64,000 nt of DNA from Flaviflexus salsibiostraticola. Lineage in GTDB: Bacteria > Actinomycetota > Actinomycetes > Actinomycetales > Actinomycetaceae. Location of the stretch: contig NZ_CP034438.1 of assembly GCF_003952265.1 (NCBI RefSeq), forward strand, positions 496,001 through 560,000, in the 5' to 3' direction. The position numbers and the translations under genes are program-made. Under the pieces are notes generated by a model. It did not search any database, was not told the origin of the DNA, and was given only the letters and a program-made list of their open reading frames with translations. Of this stretch, positions 9,966 through 32,935 are shown one piece after another; the first letter of the stretch is position 1, and the number at the start of each line of letters is the position of its first letter.

Positions 9966-9982
9966 CGTGGTGAGATAGCGGC

Positions 9983-15171: not shown

Positions 15172-15184
15172 GAAACTGGGAACC

Positions 15185-15984: not shown

Positions 15985-16018
15985 GGCTGTCGCGCCCAAC
16001 GTGCGCGACGCGTGCCCG

Positions 16019-16044
16019 CTGTCCCCGAAGTGCGCGGAGGACAG
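16019..16044 (+). promoter_or_regulatory. Ribosome-site sequestering hairpin of the FMN riboswitch
   Basis: 16019-16027 pairs with 16035-16044: nine base pairs with one bulged A at 16038 and a 7-nt loop. The 3' arm contains the GGAGGA ribosome site (16036-16041) directly before the TTG at 16045. A second perfect 6-bp hairpin (15989-15994 with 16004-16009) lies between it and the aptamer and could take part in switching. Confidence 0.7.
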
Positions 16045-16794: not shown

Positions 16795-17759
16795 AAAAAA
16801 TCCTCGCGGCCCTCACGGCCGTCGCCCTCCTCGGTGCCTGCGGCGCCGACACGGATGAGGCCGAATCGGTGACCGTCGGCATGTCCTACGTGCCGGACGT
16901 CCAGTTCTTCCCGTTCTACGTGGCCGACGACCAGGGCTTCTTCGAGGATGCCGGTGTCGACGTCACCCTCCGCCATCACGGCGCGCAGGAGCCACTCTTC
17001 ACGGCACTCACCACGGGTGAAGAGGATGTCCTCTTCGCCGGTGGGGACGAGGTTATGTACGCGAGGGCCGAGGGGATCGACGCCGTCAACTTCGCCACCC
17101 TCTACCAGGAGTACCCCGTCACCCTCATCGTCCCCGAGGACTCCGACATCATGAGCCCGGCCGACCTCGAGGGCCGCAGCGTCGGGCTCCCGGGGGAGTA
17201 TGGCGCGAATTGGTTCGGTCTGCTCGCCATGCTGGATCAGTACGACCTTGAGGATGTCGACGTCCAGAGCATCGGCTTCACGCAGATGGCGGCTCTGACC
17301 CGCGGGGACGTCGACGCCGTCATCGGCTTCGTCAACAACGACGCTGTGGCGATGGAGTCGCAGGGCTTCGACGTGCGCACTATCGACCTCGCACCGAACC
17401 TGCCCCTCATCGGCCCCGGCCTCACCGCGAGGGGTGACTCGTTCGACGAGCTCTCCGACGCCTACGTCGGGATCCTCGACGGCGTCGAGAAGGCGATCGA
17501 TTTCGCCGCCGAGAACCCCGAGGAGACCCTCGACATCGTGACGAAGTACGTGCCCGGCATGAGCGACCCCGAGGCGCGTGCCGCCGCTGAGCTGACCTTC
17601 ACCGCGACCCTGCCCCTCTACCAGGGCGATGGCACGGTCGGCATCCAGGACACCGAGCGGTGGGCAGCGATGAGCGAGTTCATGCACTCCGCCGGCATCA
17701 TCTCGACCGAGGTTCCCGCGGATGAGGCGATGACGACGCAGATCGTCGACGCACGATGA
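16791..17759 (+). CDS. ribY: Riboflavin-binding lipoprotein RibY (ThiY/NMT1-like)
   Basis: Extracellular substrate-binding lipoprotein of the ThiY/NMT1/SsuA fold, 322 residues. A short signal peptide MKKILAALTAVALLGAC ends with the lipobox Cys at residue 17. The mature domain begins SVTVGMSYVPDVQFFPFYVA and includes the GLPGEYGANWFG loop. The ATG overlaps the ribX stop (ATGA), so the two are coupled and both fall under the FMN riboswitch. This makes riboflavin or a flavin the likely ligand rather than a thiamine precursor. A strong terminator follows. Confidence 0.88.
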   Translation: MKKILAALTAVALLGACGADTDEAESVTVGMSYVPDVQFFPFYVADDQGFFEDAGVDVTLRHHGAQEPLFTALTTGEEDVLFAGGDEVMYARAEGIDAVNFATLYQEYPVTLIVPEDSDIMSPADLEGRSVGLPGEYGANWFGLLAMLDQYDLEDVDVQSIGFTQMAALTRGDVDAVIGFVNNDAVAMESQGFDVRTIDLAPNLPLIGPGLTARGDSFDELSDAYVGILDGVEKAIDFAAENPEETLDIVTKYVPGMSDPEARAAAELTFTATLPLYQGDGTVGIQDTERWAAMSEFMHSAGIISTEVPADEAMTTQIVDAR

Positions 17760-19550: not shown

Positions 19551-20253
19551 TCGACGTGTTCGACTGACCGGCGGAACCTCGCACCATTGCGGCCAGCCAG
19601 TCCGTCTCGCCGCCCTCATCGATCACATTCTGTCCAGCTGGTATTCAGGGCTCAGCGGTGGACCCACCGGCACCCACGCACCTCCGCACGGACACACCCC
19701 TGCGTGCTCCGCAGCGAGGCCCGTCCTGCCCAGCACCCAATGATGCGTGCGATGCGCCGGTCACGTCCTTCGCTCCTGCCGAGTTGACCATTCTCGTATC
19801 GTTCTTGCTGCCAGAGCATGGCGAAGGCGTGTCCATGCATTCCCGTGTTGATTCGCACGCAGAGACGTCATCGCATAACTATGACGACACTATTAACGCT
19901 CCGCGCCATGAGGCGTGCGTCATAACCTGCGCATTTCGGACGGAACCCGTCCACCACCTGTTGCGCTCTGGCACGGCATAGGCTCGGGACTATCGGAGCA
20001 GATCACCGAGCATGCTGGGCTCGCCGCGCCAGGCGGGGGCCTGGTGGATGGGCGCCCTCACGCCGATCGAGCGCCCGCCTATTCGGACTGGAAGCGTCCG
20101 CAGAAAGCCCACCTTGGTCCCACGACCTCGGCAAACCTGGGGCCCATGATGACTGATGTGCAGGGGCGAACTCTCGCCGGACGGCACGATCAATTTCCAC
20201 ACAGTCTTCACTGCGGCCGCTGGCGGCGCTCCCTTTTCTGAAAGGCAACACCA
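19551..20253. other. 700-bp region without a convincing gene, upstream of the cai-like operon
   Basis: No open frame here looks like protein on either strand. A relatively AT-rich patch (about 19865-19930) holds CGTCAT at 19866-19871, its reverse complement at 19881-19886 and CGTCAT again at 19918-19923, flanking a -10-like TATTAA. This patch is a candidate promoter/operator for the operon that starts at 20254, which would give a leader of over 300 bases. A GAAAGG ribosome site precedes the first gene. Nothing else recognisable. Confidence 0.5.
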
Positions 20254-21636
20254 ATGATCAATCTTCGTGAGGAGGTGCGGGCGAACGATTTGACCAAGGG
20301 TCATCGGATTTTCCTGCTTATTCTCGTATCAATGGGTAGTTCGATTATTTATGCACCTGCCTACCTCAAGAATGTCATCTATGACCCGCTCATGGAGGCG
20401 CTCAACGCCAGCAATGAGCAGATCGGTTCGCTCATCACCGCCTACGCGATCACGGCGACGATCTGCTACCTCCCGTCCGGCATCATCGCCGACAAGATCC
20501 GCATGCGCACCCTGGCCTGGGTCGGCTTCAGCTCGACCGCGGTCCTCACCTTCATGTACGGCCTGCTTCCGTCGATGGTCATGCTGCACCTCATCTTCGT
20601 CGGCATGGGCGTGACAACGATCCTCATCTGGTGGGGCATCCGCTTCAAGCTCGTCCGCCTCATCTCCGAAGAGGAGGATTACTCGCGCAACATCGGCCTC
20701 TCCTACGGCGTCTACGGCGCCGCCGGCCTCATCATGGGTGTCGTCCAGCTCGCCATCATCTCGTGGATGGCGACGAACATGGACATGGCCGTCCGCTCGC
20801 TCATCTGGATCCTCGCCGGCATCATCCTCGTCCTTGGCGTCCTCTCCTTCCTCTTCATCCCGAAGTTCGAGGGCGAGATCGCGAACACGAAGGAGAACGG
20901 CTTCTCCCTGTCGGAGCTGCGCGACGCGCTCAAGTCTCCTGTCGTCTGGATCGCCGCGGCCACGATGTTCTGCGTGTACTTCTACTACACGGGCGTCTCC
21001 TACACGACCCCCTACCTCACGTCGGTCCTCGGCGCGAGCGTCGGCATCGCCACGTTCGTCTCGGTCATCCGCACCTACGGCGTCACCCTCCTGTCCGGCC
21101 CCGCGTTCGGCTTCATGGCGAAGGCCGTCAACTCCCCGTCGAAGATCATCGCGGCAGGCTCACTCGTCACCGCGATCTCGATCGTCGTCCTCACCTTCCT
21201 CCCGTCGAACCAGGCGGCGACCATCATCGCGGCCCTCATCATCGTCCTGCTCGGCTTCATCGCAAACGGCGTGTTCGGCATCGTCTCCTCGCAGCTCACC
21301 GAGGGCAAGGTTCCGCTCACCATCTTCGGTACAGCGACCGGCCTCCTCTCGGTCGTCGGCTTCCTGCCCGACACGTTCTCCTCGAAGTGGTTCGGCGCAA
21401 TGATCGACGAGAAGGGCAACGACGCGTACCCGCAGATCTTCGGCATCCTCGCCGGCGTCGCGGTGCTCGCCATGGTCTGCGCCATCGCCCTCATCCTTTA
21501 CGTCCGCAGGACGAACGCCCGCACGGCCGACGCGGTCATCGAGGCCGAGATCGCAGCCCAGGGCACGATTCCGCCGGCAGCGGCTGAGGCAGCGCTCGCC
21601 GAAACGGCAGTCGAGGTGGAGCCGACCCGTGGTTAA
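20254..21636 (+). CDS. MFS transporter, first gene of the cai-like operon
   Basis: A 460-residue major facilitator protein with about 12 membrane segments (for example IFLLILVSMGSSIIYAPAYL and IIAALIIVLLGFIANGVFGI). The cytoplasmic loop IADKIRMRTLAW lies between TM2 and TM3, with a hydrophilic alanine-rich tail. It is not a BCCT family member, so it replaces CaiT by position rather than by homology. From the operon it probably imports the substrate (carnitine, crotonobetaine or a related compound) or exchanges it for product; this is inference. Its last eight bases overlap the next start. Confidence 0.85.
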   Translation: MINLREEVRANDLTKGHRIFLLILVSMGSSIIYAPAYLKNVIYDPLMEALNASNEQIGSLITAYAITATICYLPSGIIADKIRMRTLAWVGFSSTAVLTFMYGLLPSMVMLHLIFVGMGVTTILIWWGIRFKLVRLISEEEDYSRNIGLSYGVYGAAGLIMGVVQLAIISWMATNMDMAVRSLIWILAGIILVLGVLSFLFIPKFEGEIANTKENGFSLSELRDALKSPVVWIAAATMFCVYFYYTGVSYTTPYLTSVLGASVGIATFVSVIRTYGVTLLSGPAFGFMAKAVNSPSKIIAAGSLVTAISIVVLTFLPSNQAATIIAALIIVLLGFIANGVFGIVSSQLTEGKVPLTIFGTATGLLSVVGFLPDTFSSKWFGAMIDEKGNDAYPQIFGILAGVAVLAMVCAIALILYVRRTNARTADAVIEAEIAAQGTIPPAAAEAALAETAVEVEPTRG

Positions 21637-22600
21637 CAAGATCGATGTCCCCTCGCGCTGGACGGCAGAGACAGGCGAGGCGGTGGCGAAGCAGAACGAA
21701 CTCGCAGCCGACGTCTACTCCACCGACCAGAGCGTGGCGGAGATGAGGGAGGGCTACCGCAGGGAGCGCGCCTACTGGAACGAGGGCGGGCCGGTCATGG
21801 CCGCCACCGTCGATGGCGTCATCCCCACCGAGCACGGCGAGATCAAGGTCCGGATGTACCGTCCGACCGCCGATGCTGTCCTTCCCGCCATCTTCTTCAC
21901 CCACGGCGGCGGCTGGTGCCTCGGTGACCTTGACACCCACGACAGGATGACCCGGCTCATCGCCGAGGAGTCCGGCGCGGCGGTCATCGCCATCGACTAC
22001 GGGCTCGCCCCCGAGACGAAGTACCCGACCAACCTCCAGCAGTGCGTCGCGGTCGTCCAGGCGATTCGCGCTGCCGCCGACGAGTGGGGCATCGACAACG
22101 CCGATGTCTCGTTCGCGGGTGACTCCGGCGGGGCCCACATTGCGCTCGGCTCCTACCTCTACCTGCGGGACGTCGAAAAGGCGGCAGACAATGTTCGCGC
22201 CCTTCTCCTCTTCTACGGGTGGTACGGCCTGCGCGACTCGCCCTCGCAGCGCCGCCTCGGCGGCCCGTGGGACGGCATCACCCAGGAGGAGCTCCGCTTC
22301 TACCTGAGCCAGGCGCTGACCGATGAGAGCCAGATGACCGACCGGTTCCTCGATCTGTTCCAGAACGATCTGACGAGGGACATGCCGGCCACCTACATCG
22401 TCGCCGCGGATCTCGACCCGCTGCTCGATGACTCGCGTCTCCTCGCGGAGATCCTCAAGGACTCCGGAATCCCGGTCACGCTCGACATCTACGAGGGCAT
22501 CATCCACGCCTTCCTCCATCATTCACGGATTGTGCCCGAAGCGGGAGCGGCCATTGCGGCTGCGGCCGACTTCTATCGCGCACAGGCCGAACGGTCCTAG
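21629..22600 (+). CDS. HSL-family alpha/beta hydrolase (esterase)
   Basis: A 323-residue hydrolase of the hormone-sensitive-lipase group. The oxyanion motif HGGGW is at residues 92-96, the nucleophile Ser166 is in GDSGG, and the acid Asp263 (DLDPLLDD) and His293 complete the triad. It is encoded between the transporter and caiA in one operon, starting with GTG at 21629. The classic cai operon has no such gene. A role in splitting acyl esters such as O-acylcarnitine before CoA activation is plausible but unproven. There is no signal peptide, so it is cytoplasmic. Confidence 0.85.
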
Positions 22601-22647
22601 GTGCGGCCACGCACAACCACCACCACACAGAAAGAAGTGACATCACC

Positions 22648-23781
22648 ATGGATTTTTCGCTGAACGAAGACCAGGAGCTCATGGTCGAGGGTTATCGCCA
22701 GCTCATGGAGTCGCGCAACTGGGAGGACTACTTCCGCGAGTGCGACACGAACTCGGAGTACCCGATCGAGTGGGTTGAGGCGATCTGCGAGCTCGGCTTC
22801 GACCGGATTCTCCTGCCGGAGGAGCACGACGGCTTCGGACTAGACTGGACGGCGCTCACCGCGGCGTACGAGGAGCTGGGCCGCATGGGCGGACCGACCT
22901 ACGTCCTCTACCAGCTGCCCGGTTGGAGCACGGTCCTGCGCGAGGGCACCGAGGAGCAGAAGGAGAAGATCCTCTCCTTCGTCGGTACCGGTCAGCAGAT
23001 GCTCAACTACGCCATGACGGAGCCCGGTGCGGGCTCCTCGTGGGACGAGATGGCGACAACGTACACGCGCAGGGACGGCAAGGTCTATCTCAATGGACAC
23101 AAGACGTTCCAGACGTCGGCCATGCACGCGCCGTACATGATCGTCATGGCCCGCAACGCCGACGACATGTCGGTCTACTCCGAATGGTTCGTCGACATGT
23201 CGAAGGCCGGCATCACGAAGGAGCCGCTCAAGAAGCTCGGTCTCAAGATGGACTCGTGCGCGGAGCTCTACTTCGATGACGTCGAGCTCGAGGAGTCCGA
23301 TCTGTTCGGCACCGAGGGCAACGCGTTCATGCGCGGTGTCCAGGACTTCGACCTCGAGCGCTTCCTCGTCGCGCTGACCAACTACGGCACGGCCTACATG
23401 GCGTTCGAGGATGCGGCGAAGTACGCGAACCAGCGCGTCCAGGGCGGTGAGGCCATCGGCCGCACCCAGCTCATCCAGCTCAAGTTCGCGGAGATGAAGG
23501 TCGCCCTCGTCAACATGCGGAACATGCTGTACGAGATCGCCTGGAAGTCCGGTAACGGCACGCTCGGCCGCGGCGACTGCTCGATGGCGAAGTACTACTG
23601 CTCGCACGCGTCCAGCGAGGTCGTCGACCACGCGCTGCAGGTCCTCGCCGGCATCGGCGTCACGGGCGAGCACCGCGTCCAGCGCGCCTACCGCGACCTG
23701 CGGGTCGACCGCGTCTCGGGCGGCACCGACGAGGTCATGATCCTCGCGACCGGCCGCGCGGCGCTGCGGGACTACAGGTAA
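22648..23781 (+). CDS. caiA: CaiA-type acyl-CoA dehydrogenase (crotonobetainyl-CoA reductase)
   Basis: Flavin acyl-CoA dehydrogenase family. In enterobacteria CaiA reduces crotonobetainyl-CoA to gamma-butyrobetainyl-CoA, with electrons from FixABCX. At 377 residues the length is close to E. coli CaiA and the match is strong throughout: [11 protein letters not shown] at the start, [27 protein letters not shown] (FAD binding), [13 protein letters not shown] and [36 protein letters not shown] ends the match. A purine-rich ribosome site precedes the ATG. Thirteen bases separate it from caiB. The fixABCX operon in the same region supports the assignment. Confidence 0.92.
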
Positions 23782-23794
23782 GGGGAAGAGCTCA

Positions 23795-25018
23795 ATGGAG
23801 ACAGTGAAACCGTCATTCGGCGTCCTCGATGACGTCAAGGTCGTCTACTCGGCCGTCGAGATCGCTGCGCCCACCGCGGCCGCGATCATGGGCGAGTGGG
23901 GTGCGGATGTCACGTGGATCGAGAACGTGTGGAGCGGTGACTCCATGCGCGACACCGCCTGGGTGAAGGAGATGGAGCGCCGCAACATGCGGTCGATCTC
24001 CCTCAACGCCTTCACCGAGGAGGGGAAGGAGGCCCTTGCGGGCCTCGTCAAGGATGCGGACATCTTCATCGAGTCCTCCAAGGGCGGCACCTACGCCCGC
24101 AAGGGGATCACCGATGAGTGGCTGTGGAGCATCAACCCGAGGCTCGTCATCGTCCACGTGTCCGGCTTCGGCCTGACCGGGGTCAAGGAGCGCGTCGAAT
24201 CGGCGGCCTATGACCTGACGGTCGCGGCCTACGCCGGCATCGTCGCCCAGAACGGCACGCCCGAGCAGCCGATGAACATCCACCCCTACGGGGCGGACTA
24301 CTTCAACGCGCTCATGATCGTGTCATCCTCGCTCGCCGCCCTCCACAGGGTCGGCGTCACGGGCGAGGGCGAGTCGGTCGAGGTCGCCATGTACGAGACG
24401 ATGCTCCGCGTCGGGTCGTACTACATGATGGATTACCTCAACGCCGGCGTGACGTACGACCGTCCGGGCGGGCGCCACCAAAACCTGTGCGGCATCGGCC
24501 TCTACGAGTGCGCGGACGGCTACATCGGTCTGTGCCTGTACGGCGTCCCGCAGAACAAGTACCTGCTCGAGCAGATCGGCCTCGGCGACCTGTGGGGCAC
24601 CGAGGAGTACCCGGAGGGCACGTCCGCTCTGTGGCTCGACGGCCCCAAGGCGGAGCTCATCGAGCAGAAGCTCGAGGAGTACCTCGCCGCCCGGTCGAAG
24701 TGGGATGTCGAGAAGGACTTCGTCGCCCACAGGATCGCGGCCCAGGTCGTCAACGAGATCAAGGATGTTCTGGCCGACGAGCATGTCGCGCTGCGGAACA
24801 ACTTCATCGAGTGGGAGAACGCTGAGGGGAAGACCGTCCGCGGTCCGAACACGTTCCCGACGTTCGCGAAGAACCCGGGCGGCTTCTGGCGGCCCATGCC
24901 GAACCTCGGCCAGGACTCACGCGACGTCCTTGAGCGTGCCGGCTTCTCGGATGAGGACATCCGTCGCTTCGGCGAGTCGGGCGCAGTGAAGTTCGGAGAG
25001 CAGGTGGAGCAGCCGTAG
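23795..25018 (+). CDS. caiB: CaiB-type CoA-transferase
   Basis: Class III CoA-transferase. CaiB moves CoA from gamma-butyrobetainyl-CoA to carnitine (or crotonobetaine). The 407 residues align along the whole length with E. coli CaiB: VVYSAVEIAAPTAAAIMGEW, WIENVWSGDS, IFIESSKGG, GITDEWLWSINPRLVIVHVS. The catalytic aspartate is Asp168 in HPYGADYFNA, matching Asp169 of the E. coli enzyme. GPNTFPTFAKNPGGFWRPMP is at the end. It lies between caiA and caiC, the same A-B-C order as in E. coli. Confidence 0.92.
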   Translation: METVKPSFGVLDDVKVVYSAVEIAAPTAAAIMGEWGADVTWIENVWSGDSMRDTAWVKEMERRNMRSISLNAFTEEGKEALAGLVKDADIFIESSKGGTYARKGITDEWLWSINPRLVIVHVSGFGLTGVKERVESAAYDLTVAAYAGIVAQNGTPEQPMNIHPYGADYFNALMIVSSSLAALHRVGVTGEGESVEVAMYETMLRVGSYYMMDYLNAGVTYDRPGGRHQNLCGIGLYECADGYIGLCLYGVPQNKYLLEQIGLGDLWGTEEYPEGTSALWLDGPKAELIEQKLEEYLAARSKWDVEKDFVAHRIAAQVVNEIKDVLADEHVALRNNFIEWENAEGKTVRGPNTFPTFAKNPGGFWRPMPNLGQDSRDVLERAGFSDEDIRRFGESGAVKFGEQVEQP

Positions 25019-25028
25019 GCTGCGCGCG

Positions 25029-26582
25029 ATGACAGACATGAGTGTGGGGGAGCTGTGGGAGGCACGGTGCGTGTCTCACCCTGAGGCCGAGTTCCTCGTC
25101 TTCGAGGATCCGGATTCGGGGCGCGTCCGTCGGTACACGTACGGGCAGTTCGACTCTCGGGTCGAGGCCCTCGCGGACATCCTCGCCGATCGCGGCATCC
25201 GCGCCGGCGACCGCGTGGCCACGCTCCTCCACAACTCTGTCGAGTTCATCGAGACCCTCCTGGCGCTGGCGAAGATCGGCGGCGTCCTCGTCCCGATCAA
25301 CGCGGCCAGCACACCCTGCGAGGCCCGCTACATCCTGGGCCACACCGGGGCACGTCTCGTCGTGTCCGACCCCGATCTCGGGGCGGACCTCGAGTCCCCG
25401 CAGCTCCACATCCGGGGCTGCGCGGAGGGCGCCTACAGCACACCACCTGCGCCGCCGCGGGCACGCCGAGACAGCCCGGCGGGCAGCGACCTCTTCCAGA
25501 TCATGTTCACCTCGGGCACGACGTCCCGGCCGAAGGGCGTCATGCTGTCGCACCGCAACGCGACCTTCTCGGGCGAGTTCTGCGTGTGGCAGATGGCGAT
25601 GACGAGCACGGACCGACTGCTGACGTCGATGGCGATGAGCCATATCAACTTCCAGTTCTCGGCCCTCATGCCCGTCATCGAGGCAGGCGCGACCCTCGTC
25701 GCCCTCACACGCTACTCGGCGACGCGCTTCTGGAGGTCAGTCCGCCGCCATCGCGCCACCCTCGTCCAGGGGATGGCGATGATCGCCCGAACCATGCTCA
25801 AGCAGCCGGTCGATCCGGGGGAGAGGGATCATGTCGTGCGCGACATGCACTACTTCCTGCCGCTGAGCGATGCCGAGAAGGAGGAGTTCACCTCCCGCTT
25901 CGGCGTCACCCTGCTCAACAACTACGGCTCGACAGAGTCTCTTGTCGGCGTCATCACCGACCCGCCGGTCGGGGAGCGGCGCTGGCCCTCGATCGGCAGG
26001 ATCGGGCCCGGCTACCGGGCACGGATCTGCGCCGAGGACGGCACCGAGCAGCCAGCCGGTCAGTGCGGGGAGCTCTACATCCATGGCATCCCCGGGGTCA
26101 GCCTCATGATGGGCTACTGGAACGACCCGGCGGCGACCGCCGCTGTGCTGGCCGATGGCTGGTACCGCACCGGTGACTACGCCGTCGTCGACGAGGAGGG
26201 CTGGTTCTTCTTCCTCGACCGGCACCTCGACCTCATCAAGCGGGCCGGCGAGAACGTCTCGGCCACCGAGGTCGAGTGCGTGCTGTCCGGGTGCCCCGGA
26301 GTTGAGGCAGTCGCCGTCGTCGGCGTGGTCGACGAGGTGCGGGACATGGCGGTCAAGGCTGTCGTCGTCCCCGCATCCGAGCATGTGACCGCCCAGTCCA
26401 TCATCGACTACGCCTCCCGCAGGCTGTCCTATTTCAAAGTTCCCACAATCATCGAGTTCCGCAGCGCTCTGCCGCGCGGCGCCTACGGCAAGGTCAACCG
26501 CCAGGCCCTCAAGGAACCCGCAGAGATCTCTGACCGGCCGCGGGCCTGTCAGCCGACACCTCACATCACGACCAGTCACTAG
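25029..26582 (+). CDS. caiC: CaiC-type betaine/carnitine-CoA ligase
   Basis: AMP-forming acyl-CoA synthetase that primes the CaiB cycle by making the first betaine-CoA. The 517-residue protein has the P-loop FTSGTTSRPKGV at 160-171, identical in its core to E. coli CaiC. The RRWPSIGRIG stretch, LLNNYGSTESLVGVI (A5 region), WYRTGDYAVVDEEGWFFFLDR and the C-terminal lysine region LPRGAYGKVNRQ follow. The substrate is inferred from family and operon only. Thirteen bases separate it from the next gene. Confidence 0.9.
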   Translation: MTDMSVGELWEARCVSHPEAEFLVFEDPDSGRVRRYTYGQFDSRVEALADILADRGIRAGDRVATLLHNSVEFIETLLALAKIGGVLVPINAASTPCEARYILGHTGARLVVSDPDLGADLESPQLHIRGCAEGAYSTPPAPPRARRDSPAGSDLFQIMFTSGTTSRPKGVMLSHRNATFSGEFCVWQMAMTSTDRLLTSMAMSHINFQFSALMPVIEAGATLVALTRYSATRFWRSVRRHRATLVQGMAMIARTMLKQPVDPGERDHVVRDMHYFLPLSDAEKEEFTSRFGVTLLNNYGSTESLVGVITDPPVGERRWPSIGRIGPGYRARICAEDGTEQPAGQCGELYIHGIPGVSLMMGYWNDPAATAAVLADGWYRTGDYAVVDEEGWFFFLDRHLDLIKRAGENVSATEVECVLSGCPGVEAVAVVGVVDEVRDMAVKAVVVPASEHVTAQSIIDYASRRLSYFKVPTIIEFRSALPRGAYGKVNRQALKEPAEISDRPRACQPTPHITTSH

Positions 26583-26595
26583 AAGGAGACCAGAT

Positions 26596-27471
26596 ATGGC
26601 GATCAATACGGAGATGGTGGGCCAGACATTTGGCCCGTTCGTCCGCGAATACACGTTCCGCGACCTCGAGCTCTTCGCGCTCGGCTGCGGCGCCGGCATC
26701 GACGGCCGGGACGGCCTCGAGTACATCAACGAGAAGGATTCGACGAACCCGGAGCTCAAGGTGCTCCCGATGTTCGGCGCGATGCTCATCGTCGACTCCG
26801 AGGTCACGCGCACCATCGACTACGGCTACAACTACGCGGGCTCCCTCCACTGGGGCTTCGACATCACGTTCCATGAGCCGATCACGAAGATGGCGGACCG
26901 TCTCGAGACCTTCGTCAGGCTTGAGGGCCTCTTCGACCGCGGCGAGGGTCGCGGCCTGCTCGCCCAGCACATCGGCGACACGTACGACTCGGATGGCACG
27001 AAGCTGTTCACGACCGAGTCGTGGGACTGCCTCATCTACGACGGCGGCTGGGGCGGCCCCGCCGCACCGAAGGACATCGTCGAGATGCCGGACCGTGAGC
27101 CGGACGTTGTCGTGACCGAGCGTATCCCCGAGAACCAGGCGCTCATCTACCGCCTGTCGGGCGACTACCACCCGCAGCACATCGACTGGGACTACGCCGC
27201 CGAGAACGGCGAGCCGCGCCCGATCCTCCACGCGATCTCCTACGCGGGCGTCGTCATGCGCCACGCCATCAACGAGTTCGTCCCCGGCGAGCCGGAGCGG
27301 ATCACCCGCTTCAAGACCCGGATCACCTCACCCGTCCACCCGGGCACCACGCTCAGGACCGAGCTGTGGAAGGTCGGCGAGGGCGAGCTCCGCTTCCGCC
27401 TCGTCGATGAGGATGTCGACGCGACGGGAGCGAAGCCCCACCTCAACTGGGGAATCATCGAATTCAAGTAG
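26596..27471 (+). CDS. MaoC-type double hot-dog enoyl-CoA hydratase in the caiD position
   Basis: A 291-residue hydratase-2 family protein with two hot-dog halves. The signature lies in the second half, YRLSGDYHPQHIDWDYA, with catalytic Asp190 and His195. The family consensus GDxNPxH has His192 in place of Asn here. The first half is degenerate, as in eukaryotic and bacterial hydratase-2 proteins of about 290 residues. It sits right after caiC, where E. coli has the crotonase-fold hydratase caiD. The likely reaction is hydration/dehydration between the enoyl-CoA (crotonobetainyl-CoA) and hydroxyacyl-CoA (carnitinyl-CoA). Facial selectivity differs between the two folds, so the stereochemical outcome is open. 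Confidence 0.87.
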   Translation: MAINTEMVGQTFGPFVREYTFRDLELFALGCGAGIDGRDGLEYINEKDSTNPELKVLPMFGAMLIVDSEVTRTIDYGYNYAGSLHWGFDITFHEPITKMADRLETFVRLEGLFDRGEGRGLLAQHIGDTYDSDGTKLFTTESWDCLIYDGGWGGPAAPKDIVEMPDREPDVVVTERIPENQALIYRLSGDYHPQHIDWDYAAENGEPRPILHAISYAGVVMRHAINEFVPGEPERITRFKTRITSPVHPGTTLRTELWKVGEGELRFRLVDEDVDATGAKPHLNWGIIEFK

Positions 27472-27510
27472 GCGAACTGGAGCGGGCCACCCGCAGCGGA
27501 AGAAGGAAGA

Positions 27511-28845
27511 ATGCAGAAAGTTAGCCTCGACGATCTGGGGATGAACACATTCCTCAAACGGATCACCCTCTACTCATCGGGAGGTCCGTTCCTCGAGGGA
27601 TACGTGCTCGGCGTCATCGGCGTCGCGCTGCCCCTCATCGTCAGCGAGTTCAGAATCGATGAGCACTGGAACGGACTCCTTGGAGTCGCCTCCCTCATCG
27701 GCCTGTTCTTCGGCGCCTCTGTCGGCGGATGGCTCACCGACCTGCTCGGCCGGAAGCGGATGTTCATCATCGACATCGCGCTCATCGGCATCCTCTCCAT
27801 CATCTCCGCCTTCGTGGCGAGCCCGCTCCAGCTCTTCATCGTCCGATTCCTCATCGGCCTCGCCGTCGGCGCGGATTATCCAATCGCGACCTCGATGATC
27901 GCCGAGTTCACGCCGCGCCGCTACCGGGCGATCTCGATGGGCTTCATCGCAGCGATGTGGTACATCGGGGCGAACACGTCCTACGTGGTCGGCTACTTCC
28001 TCCTCGACCTCAAGGGCGGTTGGCGGTGGATGCTCGCGAGCTCGATCATCCCGTGCCTCATCATCCTCATTGGGCGCTGGTCGATCCCCGAATCCCCGCG
28101 CTGGCTCATGTCGAAGGGCCGCACGGACGAGGCCGAGTCCATCATGGAGTCGATCTTCCACACGCCGGTCCAGCTCGAGGATGAGACGGCAGAGAAGACG
28201 GATCTGCGCAGGCTCCTGCACGGCACCTACCTCAAGCGCATCATCTTCGTCGGCGTCATCTGGCTGTGCCAGGCAATCCCCATGTACGCCATCTACACGT
28301 ACGGCCCGCAGATCATCTCCGGGTTCGGCTTCGGCGAGGGCCGCGCGGCCCTCATCGGCGAGATCATCATCGGCACCTTCTTCATGATCGGCACCATCCC
28401 GGCCATGTTCCTCGCCGAGTACTGGGGCAGGCGCCCCCTCATCATCTGGAGCTTCGTCATCATGACGGCCTCCCTCGCGATCCTCGGCATCATCCCCGCG
28501 CCCACGATGGTCGTCGTCGTCAGCTGCTTCGCGATTTACGCGATCGCCTCGGGCGGCCCGGGCAACCTCCAGTGGCTCTACCCGAACGAGCTGTTCCCCA
28601 CGAGCGTCCGTGCAACGGCGATGGGGGCGGCCATGGCCCTGTCCCGCATCGGCACCGTCGTCTCGATCTACATCCTGCCGACGTTCCTCGCGGAGAACGG
28701 GACGGGCATGACCATGCTCGTCGGCGCGGGGATCTCCCTGCTGGGCCTGTGGATCTCGATCGCCTGGGCGCCGGAGACCTCCGGATACCCGCTGACCGAG
28801 ACCTCATCCGAGGGCTTCAATGCCCGGAAGGTGGCGTCGCGATGA
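27511..28845 (+). CDS. MFS transporter, last gene of the cai-like operon
   Basis: A 444-residue metabolite:H+ symporter/organic-cation-type MFS protein with about 12 membrane segments. It has the TM2-3 motif GGWLTDLLGRKRMF, the central PESPRWLMSKGR, the repeat AEYWGRRPLI and the TM10-11 region YPNELFPTSVRATAMG. It lies 39 bases after the hydratase gene and is convergent with the TetR gene at a five-base gap. It is unrelated in subfamily to the transporter at the operon's head, so the operon has two different porters, possibly one for import and one for product export or antiport. Confidence 0.86.
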   Translation: MQKVSLDDLGMNTFLKRITLYSSGGPFLEGYVLGVIGVALPLIVSEFRIDEHWNGLLGVASLIGLFFGASVGGWLTDLLGRKRMFIIDIALIGILSIISAFVASPLQLFIVRFLIGLAVGADYPIATSMIAEFTPRRYRAISMGFIAAMWYIGANTSYVVGYFLLDLKGGWRWMLASSIIPCLIILIGRWSIPESPRWLMSKGRTDEAESIMESIFHTPVQLEDETAEKTDLRRLLHGTYLKRIIFVGVIWLCQAIPMYAIYTYGPQIISGFGFGEGRAALIGEIIIGTFFMIGTIPAMFLAEYWGRRPLIIWSFVIMTASLAILGIIPAPTMVVVVSCFAIYAIASGGPGNLQWLYPNELFPTSVRATAMGAAMALSRIGTVVSIYILPTFLAENGTGMTMLVGAGISLLGLWISIAWAPETSGYPLTETSSEGFNARKVASR

Positions 28846-28850
28846 GGATC

Positions 28851-29471
28851 TCAGGCGAGGCGCAGGTCCCCGGCATGGTGGAGGATCCGCAGCTGATCAT
28901 CGACCAGGTCGTCGGCGTATTCGGCGAACTCGGTCTTGAAGCATTCGACATTGTCCGGGTGGAGGGTGAGGGCGCGCATGAGCGTCGATCCCTCGATGGC
29001 GTCGAGCAGGCGCGTGACGGAGATCTGCGTCGACAGCTCGCCGGCATTCTTGAGGATCCAGAGACGGTCGCGGACCGCCCGCATCGGGTAGAGGACGTGC
29101 GCGTTGTATATCTCGATGAGGGCGGGCTCGTTCTCCGTGTTCATCTCGACGAGGATGCGGCGGATCGCCTTCGAATGCTCGCCGAAGTAGAGGCCGAGGC
29201 GGTAGATCACCTCGTCGCGCAGGATCTCCCGGACCGTCGTGCCCGTGATCGGGGGGAACTCGATGAACTGGTTGAAGGAGTCGATGAGGAGGCGGTCCCG
29301 GCTGTTCCAGCGGGCGTACATCGTCGACTTTCCGACGCCGGCCAGCTTCGCCACGTTCGTCAGGTTGAACCCGTACCAGCCGGCTTCGCCGTAGAGATCG
29401 AGCGCTGCGCGCATGATCCGCTCATCCGCATCGCTGCTTCGCGGCCGCCCAACAATAGAGAACTGAGTCAC
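28851..29471 (-). CDS. TetR-family regulator, probable cai/fix regulator
   Basis: A 206-residue TetR/AcrR protein. The N-terminal helix-turn-helix reads AALDLYGEAGWYGFNLTNVA, then KLAGVGKSTMYARWNSRDRLL; a ligand-binding helical domain follows. The GTG at 29471 was chosen because GGAGGG stands 7 bases before it. An ATG 15 codons upstream at 29516 has no ribosome site. The gene separates the cai-like operon (convergent) from fixABCX (divergent), and a 23-bp inverted repeat lies in the shared fix-tetR promoter gap. Control by an acyl-CoA or betaine ligand is inference; enterobacteria use CaiF and CRP instead. Confidence 0.87.
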   Translation of the reverse strand: MTQFSIVGRPRSSDADERIMRAALDLYGEAGWYGFNLTNVAKLAGVGKSTMYARWNSRDRLLIDSFNQFIEFPPITGTTVREILRDEVIYRLGLYFGEHSKAIRRILVEMNTENEPALIEIYNAHVLYPMRAVRDRLWILKNAGELSTQISVTRLLDAIEGSTLMRALTLHPDNVECFKTEFAEYADDLVDDQLRILHHAGDLRLA

Positions 29472-29517
29472 GTGTCTTCCCTCCACAGAGCCAAAATGTC
29501 TCGCTGAACTATCCAAT

Positions 29518-29540
29518 CAGGTCCAAAGTCCGGGGACCTG
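29518..29540. promoter_or_regulatory. Inverted repeat, candidate TetR operator
   Basis: CAGGTCC (29518-29524) and GGACCTG (29534-29540) are perfect 7-bp arms with a 9-bp spacer, between the tetR start and the fixA start. Size and position fit a TetR-family operator controlling both the regulator and fixABCX. I did not find a second close copy upstream of 20254. Confidence 0.55.
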
Positions 29541-29609
29541 AGACCTAAGTCCACGCGGCCACCGCGTGCCCGGCACCACGCTGCACACCACACACAGAAA
29601 GAGGAAACC

Positions 29610-30362
29610 ATGAGCGTCGTCGTCGCTTACAAGTACGCGTTCAATCCCCAGGACGCCTCGGTCGGGGCCGATGGCCAGATCGACTGGTCGCGCGCCAAGC
29701 CCGCCGTGTCCGAATACGACCCCGTCGCCATCGGCCTTGCCCGCACGATCGCGGGCGATGGCGAGGTTGTCGGCGTCTCCGTCGGCACCGCCGCGGTCGC
29801 CAGCTCCATGGCGAAGAAGAATGCCATCTCGAAGGGCCTCGATCGGGCCCTCGTCGTCGCCGATGATGCGAGCGCCGAGTGGAACGCGACGAAGGTCGCG
29901 TCCGCCCTGGCTGGCCTCGTCCGCAGGGTCGACGATGTCGAGGTCGTCCTCGCGGGCGATTCCTCAATCGATGAGGGCGCCCGGATCGTCCCGGCGATCC
30001 TCGCCGGCCACCTCGGCTGGCCCTGCTTCCAGGACGTGCTCGGCGTTCAGAAGACCGCGGATGGCGTCACCGTCATCCAGGCCGTCACCGGCGGCACCCG
30101 CACGATCGACATCACCGGACCGGCCGTCCTCGCGGCCACGTCCGACGCGGTCGAGGTCAAGGCGGCCTCGATGAAGGACATCCTCGCCGCCGGCAAGAAG
30201 CCGCTCGAGGAGGCCACGGCCGACGAAGTGGGCGTGTCCGACGCCGCCGTCACGGTCACCGACCGCAGCAGGCCCGCCCCGCAGGCGCGTAAGAACGATA
30301 TCCGCAGCTCCGCCGACGCAGCCGGCCTGGCCGGCGAGCTCCGCGCAGCAGGCATTCTCTAG
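29610..30362 (+). CDS. fixA: FixA, electron transfer flavoprotein beta subunit
   Basis: ETF beta subunit of the FixABCX complex that passes electrons from NADH to ferredoxin and an acyl-CoA-linked acceptor. In the cai system it feeds CaiA. The 250-residue protein has VVVAYKYAFNPQDASV at the start, SEYDPVAIGLARTIAG, VVLAGDSSIDEGARIVPAILA and GGTRTIDITGPAVLAATSDA. An AGAAAGAGG ribosome site precedes the ATG at 29610. First gene of a tight fixA-fixB-fixC-fixX operon. Confidence 0.93.
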   Translation: MSVVVAYKYAFNPQDASVGADGQIDWSRAKPAVSEYDPVAIGLARTIAGDGEVVGVSVGTAAVASSMAKKNAISKGLDRALVVADDASAEWNATKVASALAGLVRRVDDVEVVLAGDSSIDEGARIVPAILAGHLGWPCFQDVLGVQKTADGVTVIQAVTGGTRTIDITGPAVLAATSDAVEVKAASMKDILAAGKKPLEEATADEVGVSDAAVTVTDRSRPAPQARKNDIRSSADAAGLAGELRAAGIL

Positions 30363-30369
30363 AAAGAAG

Positions 30370-31236
30370 ATGAACATGGCACAGATTTGGCTTATTGCAG
30401 TGAACCCCGACGTCGCGAACCTTCTTGAGCTCGCCGCGGGCCGACCCGTCACCGCCGTCACCCTCGGCGCGGACATCCCGGGCGCCGCCCGGCAGATCGT
30501 CATCCCCGTCGCCGAGGGCACGCCCGCCGAGGCGGCCGCCCCGGCCGTCGCCGAGGCGATCACGGCCGAACCCGGCGACATCATCCTCGCCGCGAACCGC
30601 TCCGCGGAGCGCGTCCTCGCCGGTGCGGTCGCCGCGAAGCTCGACGCGCCCGTCCTCTCGGGCGTCACGGCGATCGGTGACGGCACTGCCCGCCTCGCCC
30701 GCTACGGCGGCATCGTCGAGGAGACCGTCTCCTTCGAGTCCGCGGTCGTCGCGGTCGCGGATGGCGGCACGACCCCCGTGGGCGACGTCCCCGCGTCGGA
30801 GACAGGCCCCGCAACCGTCCACGCCGCCGTCGTCACCTCGACGAGCCGCTCCGATGGCGAGTCCGTCAACCTCGCGGCCGCGAAGAGGATCGTCGCCGTC
30901 GGCCGCGGCTTCAAGTCGGAGGAGGACCTGAGGCTCGCCGAGGACTTCGCGAAGGCCATCGGCGCGGAGATCGCCTGCTCGAGGCCGCTGTCCGAGGGCA
31001 CCGAGTGGCTGCCCCGCGACCGCTACATCGGGATCACCGGCCAGCATGTCGCCCCCGAGGTCTACGTCGCGATCGGCATCTCCGGCCAGATGCAGCACAC
31101 GGCCGGCATGGCAGGATCGGGCACCGTCATCTCCATCAACAGCGATGACAAGGCGCCGATGTTCTCCCAGTCCGACTACGGCATTGTCGGCGACCTCTAC
31201 GAGGTCCTGCCCGCACTGACAGAGGCGCTCGCGTGA
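30370..31236 (+). CDS. fixB: FixB, electron transfer flavoprotein alpha subunit
   Basis: ETF alpha subunit. The 288 residues have an N-terminal ETF-like domain and a C-terminal FAD-binding domain. The FAD domain shows RIVAVGRGFKSEEDLRLAE and the signature AIGISGQMQHTAGMAGSGTV, then INSDDKAPMFSQSDYGIVGDL. At 288 residues it is slightly shorter than the roughly 313 of E. coli FixB. It begins seven bases after fixA and its stop overlaps the fixC start. Confidence 0.93.
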   Translation: MNMAQIWLIAVNPDVANLLELAAGRPVTAVTLGADIPGAARQIVIPVAEGTPAEAAAPAVAEAITAEPGDIILAANRSAERVLAGAVAAKLDAPVLSGVTAIGDGTARLARYGGIVEETVSFESAVVAVADGGTTPVGDVPASETGPATVHAAVVTSTSRSDGESVNLAAAKRIVAVGRGFKSEEDLRLAEDFAKAIGAEIACSRPLSEGTEWLPRDRYIGITGQHVAPEVYVAIGISGQMQHTAGMAGSGTVISINSDDKAPMFSQSDYGIVGDLYEVLPALTEALA

Positions 31237-32525
31237 CCGACTACGACTTCGATGTCATCGTCGTCGGTGGCGGTGTCGCGGGGACGGTCTGCGCCTACCT
31301 GCTCGCGCAGGAGGGCCACGAGGTCCTCCTCGTCGAGCGGGGTGTCGAGCCGGGCTCGAAGAACCTCTCCGGCGGCGTGTTCTACTGCAGGATCATGCAG
31401 GAGATCTTCCCGAACTTCCTTGAGGAGGCGCCGGTCGAGCGGACCATCACCCGCAACTGCGTCTCATTCCTCAACGAGGGCTCGGCCGTCACCATCGACT
31501 ACTGGGACCAGCGGCTGGCGGAGCCCGTCAATGCGGTGACCGTGCTGCGGGCAAAGCTCGATGCGTGGCTCGCCGAGCAGTGCGAAGAGGCCGGCGTGAC
31601 GGTCATGCCCGGCATCAGGGTCGATGAGCTCCTCCGTGAGGGCGAGCAGTTCGTCGGCGTCCGCGCGGGCGAGGACGAGCTTCGCGCCCGCGTCGTCATC
31701 GCGGCGGATGGCGTCAATTCCTTCCTCGCCCAGAAGGCCGGCATCCGGTCCAAGGCGGAGACGAAGGACCTCGCGGTCGGCGTCAAGTCGGTCATCCGGC
31801 TCGGCGAGGACACAATCAGGCAGCGCTTCAACCTGTCGGGCAACGACGGGGCCGCGTACGCGGTCGTCGGCGACTGCACGAAGGGCGTCGCCGGCGGCGG
31901 GTTCATGTACACGAACACGGACAGCGTCTCCATCGGCGTCGTGCTTCGGCTCGATGATCTCGCCGCCAAGGGCGAGGCCTCGAGCGACGTGCACGACCAC
32001 TTCCTCTCCCACCCGTTCATCGCCCCCTTCCTCGAGGGCGGAGAGCTTCTCGAATACGGCTGTCACATGGTGCCGGAGGGCGGGCAGGGGATGATGGGGG
32101 ATGTCGTCCACCCCGGGCTCCTCATCATCGGCGACGCCTCGGGCCTCTGCCTCAACACCGGTTTCACGGTGCGGGGCATGGACCTGGCCGCGGGCTCGGC
32201 CCGCGCCGCCGCCCAGGCGGTCGACCGGGCCCTCAAGGCCGATACGGTGACGGCACAGGCGCTCGGCAGCTACACGACGTTCTTCAACGAGAGCTTCGTC
32301 GGTCAGGACATGGCGACGTATGCGAAGGCGCCCGCCTTCCTCGAGAACGAGGAGCTCTACGGGCAGATGGGTGTCCTCGTGGCGGATGTCATGCATGACG
32401 TCTTCAACCACGACCTGAGCCCCCGCAGACCGCTCGTCAAGGTCGCGCTCGGCGCCTTCAAACGGTCGGGGTTGACGGTGCGGCGCCTGGCGAAGATCGG
32501 CTACCAAGGAATGAGGTCACTCTGA
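31233..32525 (+). CDS. fixC: FixC, flavoprotein quinone-type oxidoreductase
   Basis: FAD-dependent oxidoreductase related to ETF:ubiquinone oxidoreductase, 430 residues. The N-terminal dinucleotide fold FDVIVVGGGVAGTVCAYLLA is followed by GSKNLSGGVFY and RVVIAADGVNSFLAQKAGI. HPGLLIIGDASGLCLNTGF and TVRGMDLA lie further on. It starts with GTG at 31233, overlapping fixB by four bases, and overlaps the fixX ATG by one base. It should form the membrane-facing electron acceptor of FixABCX. Confidence 0.93.
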   Translation: MTDYDFDVIVVGGGVAGTVCAYLLAQEGHEVLLVERGVEPGSKNLSGGVFYCRIMQEIFPNFLEEAPVERTITRNCVSFLNEGSAVTIDYWDQRLAEPVNAVTVLRAKLDAWLAEQCEEAGVTVMPGIRVDELLREGEQFVGVRAGEDELRARVVIAADGVNSFLAQKAGIRSKAETKDLAVGVKSVIRLGEDTIRQRFNLSGNDGAAYAVVGDCTKGVAGGGFMYTNTDSVSIGVVLRLDDLAAKGEASSDVHDHFLSHPFIAPFLEGGELLEYGCHMVPEGGQGMMGDVVHPGLLIIGDASGLCLNTGFTVRGMDLAAGSARAAAQAVDRALKADTVTAQALGSYTTFFNESFVGQDMATYAKAPAFLENEELYGQMGVLVADVMHDVFNHDLSPRRPLVKVALGAFKRSGLTVRRLAKIGYQGMRSL

Positions 32526-32821
32526 TGTCTGATTTTGTCAACGAGTCAGTCACCCAGAGGCTGGCCGGCAACCACTACGAGATCGATGAGGGCAACTCCC
32601 ACATCGAGGTCAACCAGGAGATCGCCAAGGCGACCGGCACGGGTAAGCTCCTCGTCCGGATCTGCCCCGCGCAGGTCTACTCCGAGCGTGAGGATGGCAC
32701 GATCGACGTCGAGTACGCGGCGTGCCTTGAATGCGGCACGTGTTTGGCGGTCGCCGCACCGGGCGCCCTCACGTGGCACTACCCGAGTTCCGGAACGGGC
32801 ATCGTCTTCCGCGAAGGCTAG
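32525..32821 (+). CDS. fixX: FixX, ferredoxin-like protein
   Basis: A 98-residue ferredoxin-like partner of FixC. It has one four-cysteine set (Cys47 in ICPAQVY; Cys67, Cys70, Cys73 in CLECGTC), which fits a single [4Fe-4S] cluster as in the ETF-QO/FixX family. The family-typical sequence after the cysteines, APGALTWHYP, is present. Its ATG overlaps the fixC stop and a terminator follows eight bases later. Confidence 0.93.
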   Translation: MSDFVNESVTQRLAGNHYEIDEGNSHIEVNQEIAKATGTGKLLVRICPAQVYSEREDGTIDVEYAACLECGTCLAVAAPGALTWHYPSSGTGIVFREG

Positions 32822-32828
32822 CCAGGTC

Positions 32829-32851
32829 GGCCCGCTCCCTGTGAGCGGGCC
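32829..32851 (+). terminator. Terminator after fixABCX
   Basis: GGCCCGCTC and GAGCGGGCC form a perfect 9-bp stem with a 5-nt loop (CCTGT), followed by GTTTCCGTTC, a broken T-tract. It starts eight bases after the fixX stop. Confidence 0.8.
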
Positions 32852-32935
32852 GTTTCCGTTCGCCGACTCCGTCGGAATCGTACGGCTGTGACGAATCTGC
32901 TCAGGCCGTATCGCTTGACTGCGCTGGTTGAGCGC

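Follow-up and report, generated by a model that had tools for sequence, protein, structure and literature searches.

Carnitine reduction is mostly taught from enterobacteria, and its product, gamma-butyrobetaine, is a trimethylamine precursor in the gut. The reference system is that of Escherichia coli, which comprises caiTABCDE, fixABCX and yaaU together with the regulator CaiF. We analyzed a stretch of 64 kb (G000:C1:496001-560000, hereafter the window) from the 2.61 Mb one-contig genome of Flaviflexus salsibiostraticola, a member of the Actinomycetaceae, which contains a related cluster at positions 20254-32851. We consider it highly probable that this cluster is a TetR-linked set of genes reducing carnitine to gamma-butyrobetaine under oxygen limitation.

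The closest described systems are those of propionibacteria. A metabolic reconstruction from 2020 (PMC7650540) describes clustered homologues of fixABCX and caiABC in Propionibacterium freudenreichii and P. acnes and suggests carnitine, converted to gamma-butyrobetaine, as a terminal electron acceptor in both. A 2024 study using Scoary2 (PMC11007987) compared 44 P. freudenreichii isolates for genes including those for a major facilitator superfamily (MFS) protein and an alpha/beta-hydrolase at the head of a caiABC-fixABCX cluster. In yogurts, these two genes went with loss of octanoylcarnitine and decanoylcarnitine and with gain of carnitine and putative gamma-butyrobetaine, both changes being seen for strains in which the cluster is complete. 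The same study gives caiD and caiT as missing in P. freudenreichii, and an MFS and an enoyl-CoA hydratase gene between caiABC and fixABCX as possibly filling the gaps.

The original prediction for this locus, made from the sequence alone, had held that carnitine respiration is not commonly described in the lineage. That view is contradicted by the prediction for P. freudenreichii and P. acnes and the metabolite link in P. freudenreichii, and by CaiB above its curated cut-off in 39 of 213 Actinomycetaceae genomes (host included; 12 of 36 genera). Among the titles listed, our literature search did not find the cluster described for Actinomycetaceae, which is weak evidence of absence as most subscription journals were not covered. 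Nor did we find published accounts of which hydratase replaced which, of YaaU as part of the system, or of the operator, all of which are treated below. These elements enter a broader proposal, which we hold to be slightly on the probable side: that the general bacterial form of carnitine reduction would use a MaoC hydratase of (R) specificity, marked by a distinct active-site signature, and a YaaU-type transporter, that CaiD would have come late, as a substitute in enterobacteria, and yaaU of E. coli would be an overlooked member of the pathway, and that the Actinomycetaceae set would be a TetR regulon with GGAC-N7-GTCC operators, fed by acylcarnitine hydrolysis.

Layout of the cluster and its relatives

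Open reading frames (ORFs), Pfam and NCBIfam confirmed every gene that had been named for the cluster, each an uninterrupted frame in the predicted order and place. The features are as follows.

20254..21636, + strand: MFS1, transporter in the CaiT position (PF07690, 83.5 bits; MFS model with a predicted local distance difference test score (pLDDT) of 86; placed as the MFS gene of P. freudenreichii)
21629..22600, + strand: esterase of the Aes/hormone-sensitive-lipase family (NF007547, 394 bits, cut-off 389; PDB 4krx acetyl esterase, 257 bits; HGGG, GDSGGA, Asp and His motifs)
22648..23781, + strand: caiA, crotonobetainyl-CoA reductase (NF002885, 699 bits, cut-off 540; tree)
23795..25018, + strand: caiB, CoA-transferase whose Asp168 takes the position of the E. 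coli nucleophile (NF002914, 657 bits, cut-off 413; PDB 1xa3, 362 bits)
25029..26582, + strand: caiC-like betaine:CoA ligase (best model NF005947, 527 bits, below its cut-off of 651; PF00501, PF13193)
26596..27471, + strand: MaoC-type hydratase 2 in the CaiD position (PF01575; 1s9c and 3khp by sequence and fold; motif GDYHPQHIDW at residues 189-198)
27511..28845, + strand: MFS2, orthologue of E. coli YaaU (52.9% over 437 residues, E 1e-170; PF00083)
28851..29516, - strand: TetR-family regulator (PF00440, 31.0 bits, cut-off 24; TTG start as listed, true start may be internal)
29610..30362, + strand: fixA, beta-type subunit of an electron transfer flavoprotein (ETF) (PF01012; E. coli FixA 31%)
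30370..31236, + strand: fixB, ETF alpha-type subunit (PF00766, PF01012; E. coli FixB 39%)
31233..32525, + strand: fixC, FixC/YdiS-like flavoprotein oxidoreductase (NF007450, 437 bits, cut-off 466; NF007542, 382 bits, cut-off 610; tree)
32525..32821, + strand: fixX, ferredoxin-like (E. coli FixX 39% over 92 residues; PF05187, 23.8 bits, just under its cut-off of 24)
32828..32852, + strand: intrinsic-terminator-like stem after fixX, closing the cluster (10 pairs, 9 of them G-C, T-rich tail)

Gaps between genes ran from -8 to 47 bases from MFS1 to MFS2 and from -4 to 7 bases within fixABCX. This spacing suggests two putative operons, MFS1-est-caiA-caiB-caiC-maoC-MFS2 and fixABCX, separated by tetR, which is encoded on the opposite strand. 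Terminator-like sites were no commoner in the scanned stretch than in shuffles (3 found, 3.8 expected), so that the place of the stem after fixX counts for more than the match itself.

The nearest named relative found was Flaviflexus huanghaiensis (L023), from the same genus as the host, whose twelve cluster proteins were 86-96% identical to those of the window in unchanged order. A further genome of the genus (G005) carried the same locus. P. freudenreichii DSM 20271 (L134, G972) had the window's gene set and order except tetR, with identities of 79% for CaiA, 85% for MaoC and 58% for MFS1, and its CaiB fell in the same 42-row clade of the CaiB tree. We read the cluster of the window as an undamaged set for carnitine reduction of the type known from propionibacteria, here in kin of Flaviflexus. 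The window has a TetR and two operator-like sites, whereas L134 has neither. All window genes are open, but in L134 caiB (9859-11115) has an in-frame stop and the matches to the esterase (7595-8550) and to MFS2 (13617-15183) are each split over two overlapping ORFs that lie in different frames, in line with the cluster decay described for many P. freudenreichii isolates.

With E. coli, the window shares relatives of CaiA, CaiB, CaiC, FixABCX and YaaU. Besides the values listed for FixA, FixB and FixX, identities were 62% for CaiA, 43% for CaiB, 40% for CaiC and 43% for FixC. The window differs in having MFS1 for CaiT, MaoC for CaiD and TetR for CaiF, in an added esterase, in having no CaiE among the cluster genes, in fix genes that run in the same direction as cai, and in a FixC from a separate clade to E. 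coli FixC and YdiS. Clusters in Bacillota (Neobacillus, Schinkia and a Peptococcaceae metagenome-assembled genome (MAG); L038, L043, L040) have MaoC and MFS2/YaaU as in the window, and their CaiB branches beside the actinobacterial clade. Unlike the window, they have a CaiT-type transporter (41-42% identical to E. coli CaiT), no esterase, and fixABCX between caiB and caiC.

Probable assignment to carnitine reduction

CaiA and CaiB were assigned by the test of curated cut-offs, and the other parts by position, best match or domain. CaiA exceeded the cut-off of its equivalog model, NF002885, by 159 bits, and CaiB that of NF002914 by 244 bits. All trees were quick ones made under LG+G4, with branch support from the Shimodaira-Hasegawa-like approximate likelihood ratio test (SH-aLRT) only, and those other than the CaiB tree used a hand-picked subset of loci. 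In the CaiA tree (63 rows), the window CaiA grouped with E. coli CaiA in a 51-row clade (SH-aLRT 99) rather than with enzymes of other substrates. The rows outside this clade, with long branches among them, comprised YdiO of E. coli, the CaiA-like proteins from L065 and L128, and all but one of 10 further paralogues; the exception, placed inside the clade, is a duplicate CaiA of L113 (G574), which has a second est-caiA pair within the same cluster.

We also inspected the active sites. The CaiA rows read SGG[TS]DE at the Glu site of the aligned solved acyl-CoA dehydrogenases (SGG in 107 of 108 rows, SGE in one). The Glu of the FDxERF stretch, presumably the catalytic base in a place as in isovaleryl-CoA dehydrogenase, was kept in the 14 commonest patterns listed. 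Asp168 of CaiB aligns with the E. coli Asp that reads Ala in the 1xvu chain and that we take to be the nucleophile, number 169; this Asp (PY..DY) was also kept in the 14 commonest patterns listed. The window CaiB was the sole CoA-transferase III match in the host genome.

The reading of the cluster as one for carnitine or crotonobetaine reduction, already put forward in the original prediction, is supported because CaiA and CaiB pass their cut-offs, the CaiA tree agrees and the CaiB Asp is kept. It is further supported by the same layout in P. freudenreichii DSM 20271, a species with a link to carnitine metabolites (PMC11007987), by a MaoC that is a hydratase 2 following caiC, by the MaoC locus of Enterobacillus tribolii, by MenD above its cut-off in the host genome, and by the operator evidence. 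We judge it very unlikely that CaiA and CaiB were recruited to handle another short betaine or enoate, such as a thio- or amino-analogue. CaiC and FixABC below the carnitine-model cut-offs and the presence of MaoC, MFS1 and an esterase, which are not E. coli parts, would fit such a recruitment. The scores and grouping of CaiA and CaiB given above argue against it, as does the layout in P. freudenreichii, which tracks carnitine compounds (PMC11007987). A role mainly in salvage, in which acylcarnitine and carnitine would serve as osmolyte or carbon source with little respiration, has at best a slim chance. An esterase and two transporters suit scavenging, and carnitine is a known osmolyte, but in E. 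coli CaiA and FixABCX together form the reductive set, and there was no Pfam match to carnitine dehydrogenase or a CntA-type oxygenase among the cluster genes, the rest of the genome not having been searched.

Several points weigh against carnitine reduction in this host. CaiC scored 527 bits against an equivalog cut-off of 651, NF005947 still being the best model by 193 bits, and FixA, FixB and FixC fell under the E. coli fix cut-offs (101 against 219, 160 against 549 and 382 against 610 bits). Of the predicted statement that caiABC and fixABCX are clear by sequence, the part on CaiA and CaiB was thus borne out by cut-offs, while CaiC and FixABC rest on best match, domain and order instead. 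The link reported in PMC11007987 is an association across isolates and not from knock-outs, with gamma-butyrobetaine putative. CaiB at E 1e-100 was missing in 4 of 5 other genomes of the host genus searched, so the cluster is dispensable. The literature consulted contained no biochemistry for any protein of the host genus.

If the cluster reduces carnitine, MFS1 would import L-carnitine and O-acylcarnitines, and the esterase, by analogy with the P. freudenreichii association, would release carnitine from the latter. CaiC, from what is known of its family, would prime CoA thioesters, and CaiB would move CoA from gamma-butyrobetainyl-CoA to incoming carnitine or crotonobetaine. The MaoC hydratase would dehydrate L-carnitinyl-CoA, the (R) isomer, with the handedness of hydratase 2. 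CaiA would then reduce crotonobetainyl-CoA, with FixABCX supplying the electrons, for which menaquinol or NADH is the probable source. MFS2 would be a second transporter, perhaps for product export or crotonobetaine. A repressor, most likely the divergent TetR, would sit on the GGAC-N7-GTCC sites before MFS1 until released by a compound of the pathway.

Other CaiB-like genes were seen during the searches. Tandem pairs scoring 338-355 bits, below the CaiB cut-off of 413, occurred at G532:C3:265951-268490, G913:C24:51713-54199 and G1021:C1:1812160-1814646, and are perhaps a related CoA-transferase pathway; in L128 such a pair adjoins a CaiA-like gene at 45% identity. In a Campylobacterales locus (L059, 13779-15845), a second CaiB (60% identical to E. 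coli) and a second, divergent MaoC follow the first set, the latter with the motif GCYHPLHVDW, in which Cys replaces the motif Asp.

Loci compared and distribution

We compared 121 loci, comprising E. coli, 45 named loci and 75 fetched loci. The set covers 39 of 39 Actinomycetaceae hits (the window being one), 13 of 13 Propionibacteriaceae-family hits, 21 of 37 hits from the family of Budvicia and 7 other Actinomycetota hits. The Budvicia family is labelled Enterobacteriaceae here because loci of some members were 96-100% identical to E. coli (L149). Gene content was counted in 107 unique loci, the window not counted, after removal of 12 duplicates with an identical CaiB end and of L065 and L128, with CaiB below the cut-off. 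The CaiB tree held 105 loci and the window (L138 and L140 excluded) and was rooted on two distant CaiB-like rows.

In counts that all include the centre genomes, CaiA above its cut-off was found in 8 of 396 evenly drawn Actinomycetota genomes. Outside the Actinomycetaceae, CaiB passed in 13 of 197 genomes from the family of a Propionibacteriaceae MAG and 37 of 246 from the Budvicia family, and in the centre genome alone among 274 Gammaproteobacteria, 299 Bacilli and 199 Campylobacterales. The CaiB tree divided into one half of Gammaproteobacteria and Campylobacterota with CaiT and another of Bacillota and then Actinomycetota.

The 73 loci of the MFS1 type carried the esterase in 68 cases, MaoC in 69, MFS2 in 65 and fixC in 55, some contigs ending early. 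The order and strand of MFS1-Est-CaiA-CaiB were kept in 67 of the 68 having all four. The results point to one coherent version of the system across Actinomycetaceae, Propionibacteriaceae, Cellulomonadaceae, Eggerthellaceae and Bacillota. Several members of the four actinobacterial families dwell in the mouth, on skin or in the gut, and gamma-butyrobetaine may come from more bacteria than gene searches based on CaiT or CaiD count.

A MaoC hydratase in the CaiD position

The MaoC-type protein predicted for the CaiD position proved to be a full hydratase 2, matching 1s9c and 3khp by sequence; its structural model (pLDDT 75) had 1s9c as best fold match, with a template modelling (TM) score of 0.78. 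It shares the double hot-dog hydratase fold and the motif Asp and His with hydratase 2 / MFE-2 (1s9c, 1pn4) and the mycobacterial MaoC protein 3khp. The aligned solved hydratases read GDxNPLHxDP, whereas the cai-linked MaoCs carry GDxH[PQ]QH[IV][DN][WF], as in GDYHPQHIDW of the window with its Asp and His retained. The pattern GDxH[PQ]xH[IV][DN][WF] was present in 112 of the 120 nearest database proteins listed, 7 others being off by one residue and 1 unreadable. The Trp or His of the motif might, as a guess, help to hold the trimethylammonium group. The window hydratase had no NCBIfam hit at E 1e-3 and did not reach the cut-off of the CaiD model NF002936. Enzymes of the hydratase 2 type use (R)-3-hydroxyacyl-CoA as substrate, and L-carnitine has the (R) configuration, so a MaoC suits the step between crotonobetainyl-CoA and carnitinyl-CoA.

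True CaiD was found in 21 of the 107 loci and MaoC in 76; no locus had both, and 10 had neither. In 75 of the 76 loci with both genes, MaoC lay no more than 400 bases 3' of caiC and shared its strand. A strict mutual exclusion of CaiD and MaoC was discarded because of the 10 loci, and the claim is restricted to true CaiD. Five of the 10 (L036, L039, L061, L064, L067) had another crotonase, 39-43% identical to CaiD. In L062, MaoC was cut by the contig end, L063 had neither in 21 kb, and L138, L140 and L143 were short contigs. Crotonases of this other kind, present in cai loci of Eggerthellaceae and Campylobacter, are closest to the EchA19/PRK08252 models, and six that were scored reached 173 to 208 bits against the 500 needed for CaiD (L036 3527-4321, L039 5293-6201, L057 16141-17013, L061 3564-4367, L064 3464-4300, L067 652-1449). 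Eight Eggerthellaceae-type loci had such a crotonase together with MaoC. It is possibly a third crotonobetainyl-CoA hydratase.

On the CaiB tree, MaoC occurred on both sides of the deepest split, in Bacillota and Actinomycetota on one side and in Enterobacillus, Endozoicomonas and Campylobacterales on the other, and true CaiD was confined to one clade of 21 Enterobacteriaceae rows. At least 4 changes of hydratase state were needed. Distances in the MaoC and CaiB trees correlated (r 0.76 across 76 loci, against a maximum of 0.29 in 300 permutations), and the trees broadly agree. Enterobacillus tribolii (L167, G1469:C1:3500-23400) has an E. coli-like locus of fixABCX, caiTABC and a yaaU homologue with MaoC in CaiD's place. 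Given the spread of MaoC across the deepest split and the restriction of true CaiD to Enterobacteriaceae, MaoC is probably old and CaiD a later arrival in enterobacteria.

The original prediction had the opposite model, with MaoC displacing an ancestral CaiD in Actinomycetota. E. coli, the reference system, does carry CaiD, and, as a point against an older MaoC, the CaiB root rests on two long outgroup branches, L167 being a long branch as well. The occurrence of MaoC on both sides of the split and the correlated trees argue against displacement of CaiD, which we regard as unlikely. The more general notion of repeated non-orthologous replacement around the core fits the exchange of CaiT for MFS1 and that of the regulator; for MaoC and CaiD its direction was probably the wrong way round, and MFS2 turned out to be YaaU.

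Apparent fusions of CaiC with MaoC were rejected. In ORFs of L029, L098 and L041, only the MaoC part matched any cluster protein, and the upstream part was out-of-frame sequence, in L029 and L098 also with a run of unknown letters. P0085 (443 residues) had a CaiC-like part, a stretch like neither and then MaoC, and was taken as a frame error.

Transporters and esterase

As predicted, an MFS protein holds the CaiT position. CaiT was found in 33 of the 107 loci and MFS1 in 73, never together, one short contig having neither. No CaiT match of 120 bits was seen at any of the 73 MFS1-type loci, and both transporters of the window cluster are MFS proteins, the rest of the host genome not having been searched. 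MFS1 seems to have genuinely taken over from CaiT a single time, close to the base of the actinobacterial clade; a Bacillota MAG (L037) has a distant MFS1 match at 30%. MFS1 would be an importer of carnitine and acylcarnitine or a carnitine:gamma-butyrobetaine exchanger. A sequence search of the PDB gave no match for it, and many MFS proteins resemble its model, at identities of 12-18%.

The second MFS protein had been taken for a filler at the cluster end, in the position of caiE. Its identity to E. coli YaaU instead exceeds that of CaiB, CaiC or any Fix protein to its E. coli counterpart, and by sequence it is the orthologue of YaaU (MFS2/YaaU tree of 39 rows, no outgroup). E. coli yaaU is the gene next after fixX and is annotated only as a putative transporter. 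A YaaU homologue stood at the fix operon in all 21 Enterobacteriaceae loci examined (37 found). YaaU thus appears to belong to the carnitine reduction system of E. coli, which provides a function to test for it. A literature search found no paper linking yaaU with carnitine; yaaU and fixABCX were found together in one paper, a promoter list. A PDB match of MFS2 to human OCTN2 (77 bits) was not used as a sign of carnitine transport, the glucose transporter GlcP scoring higher (153 bits).

The esterase that had been noted as an addition is of the Aes/hormone-sensitive-lipase family, marginally above the cut-off of the Aes-type acetyl esterase model, with catalytic motifs present. By analogy, it may be an O-acylcarnitine hydrolase. 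An esterase homologue (37-43%) lay near 11 of the 33 CaiT-type loci, which is a weak hint because the family is large.

FixABCX

The fix set consists of four genes in the order A-B-C-X with ETF and FixC/X relatives. The FixC tree (50 rows, midpoint root) had a strong split (SH-aLRT 100). One side held the Actinomycetaceae-type loci with L042, L044 and L118, and the other the Propionibacteriaceae-type loci, Actinotalea (L041), Eggerthellaceae, Bacillota and Pseudomonadota, with E. coli FixC and YdiS. Given this split, the electron-transfer part may also have been exchanged.

TetR and a candidate operator

The TetR in place of CaiF, also proposed originally, looks like a real regulator swap. Two operator-like palindromes lie upstream of MFS1.

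19937..19953, + strand: distal palindrome CGGAC-N7-GTCCA, GGAC starting 316 bases before MFS1 (profile score 23.6)
20084..20100, + strand: proximal palindrome CGGAC-N7-GTCCG, GGAC starting 169 bases before MFS1 (profile score 17.3)

The third best place in the window scored 5.1, and these two sites were the only exact matches to YGGAC-N7-GTCCR in the 64 kb. Across the genome, TTYGGAC-N7-GTCCR had nine matches, two at the cluster and seven in identical copies, against one for the backward control. The seven copies of TTCGGACTTTCTTGGTCCG (G000:C1 457049, 820857, 2113509, 2295963, 2302709, 2313048 and 2449735) are presumably part of a repeated element.

We searched 71 loci for the palindrome, window included (L037, L065 and L128 excluded; L113 and L139 without upstream sequence). 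A palindrome of about ATTTYGGAC-N7-GTCCRAAAT preceded MFS1 in 34 of the 35 TetR-bearing loci and in 1 of the 36 lacking TetR; the exceptions are Varibaculum (L026), with TetR but no site, and L044, with the site but no TetR. In TetR-bearing loci, GGAC-N7-GTCC ranked first among all four-base half-sites with gaps of 0-12, and the same half-sites at gaps of 3-6 or 8-12 occurred in 0-3 loci. Shuffled upstream regions (30 rounds) gave a mean of 0.4 loci with the palindrome and at most 2. L135 had five such sites spaced 23-24 bases. We infer from this co-occurrence that TetR may bind the candidate sites, which offer a handle for finding the inducer.

Two results count against this control. With kinship counted, TetR changes at least 4 times, leaving 3 independent pairs on supported branches, of which 2.9 agree (sign test p 0.25). 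The tetR-fixA stretch of the window contained no operator site, so fixABCX may be under other control; of 29 such stretches scanned (window included), only those of L028, L029 and L049 had one. A different palindrome in the window stretch (29517-29541) is unlike the operator and was not used; F. huanghaiensis has another there.

Neighboring genes in the window

Upstream of the cluster, an ABC permease and an NMT1/THI5-type binding protein, suited to thiamine-precursor-like uptake, are encoded at 16012-17759 (+), upstream of hisG. Soon after the cluster, 34227-37652 (+) encodes a 1141-residue protein with PD-(D/E)XK nuclease, RNase H-like and helicase AAA domains. A penicillin-amidase family protein of 904 residues (PF01804, 655 bits) is encoded at 56165-58879 (-).

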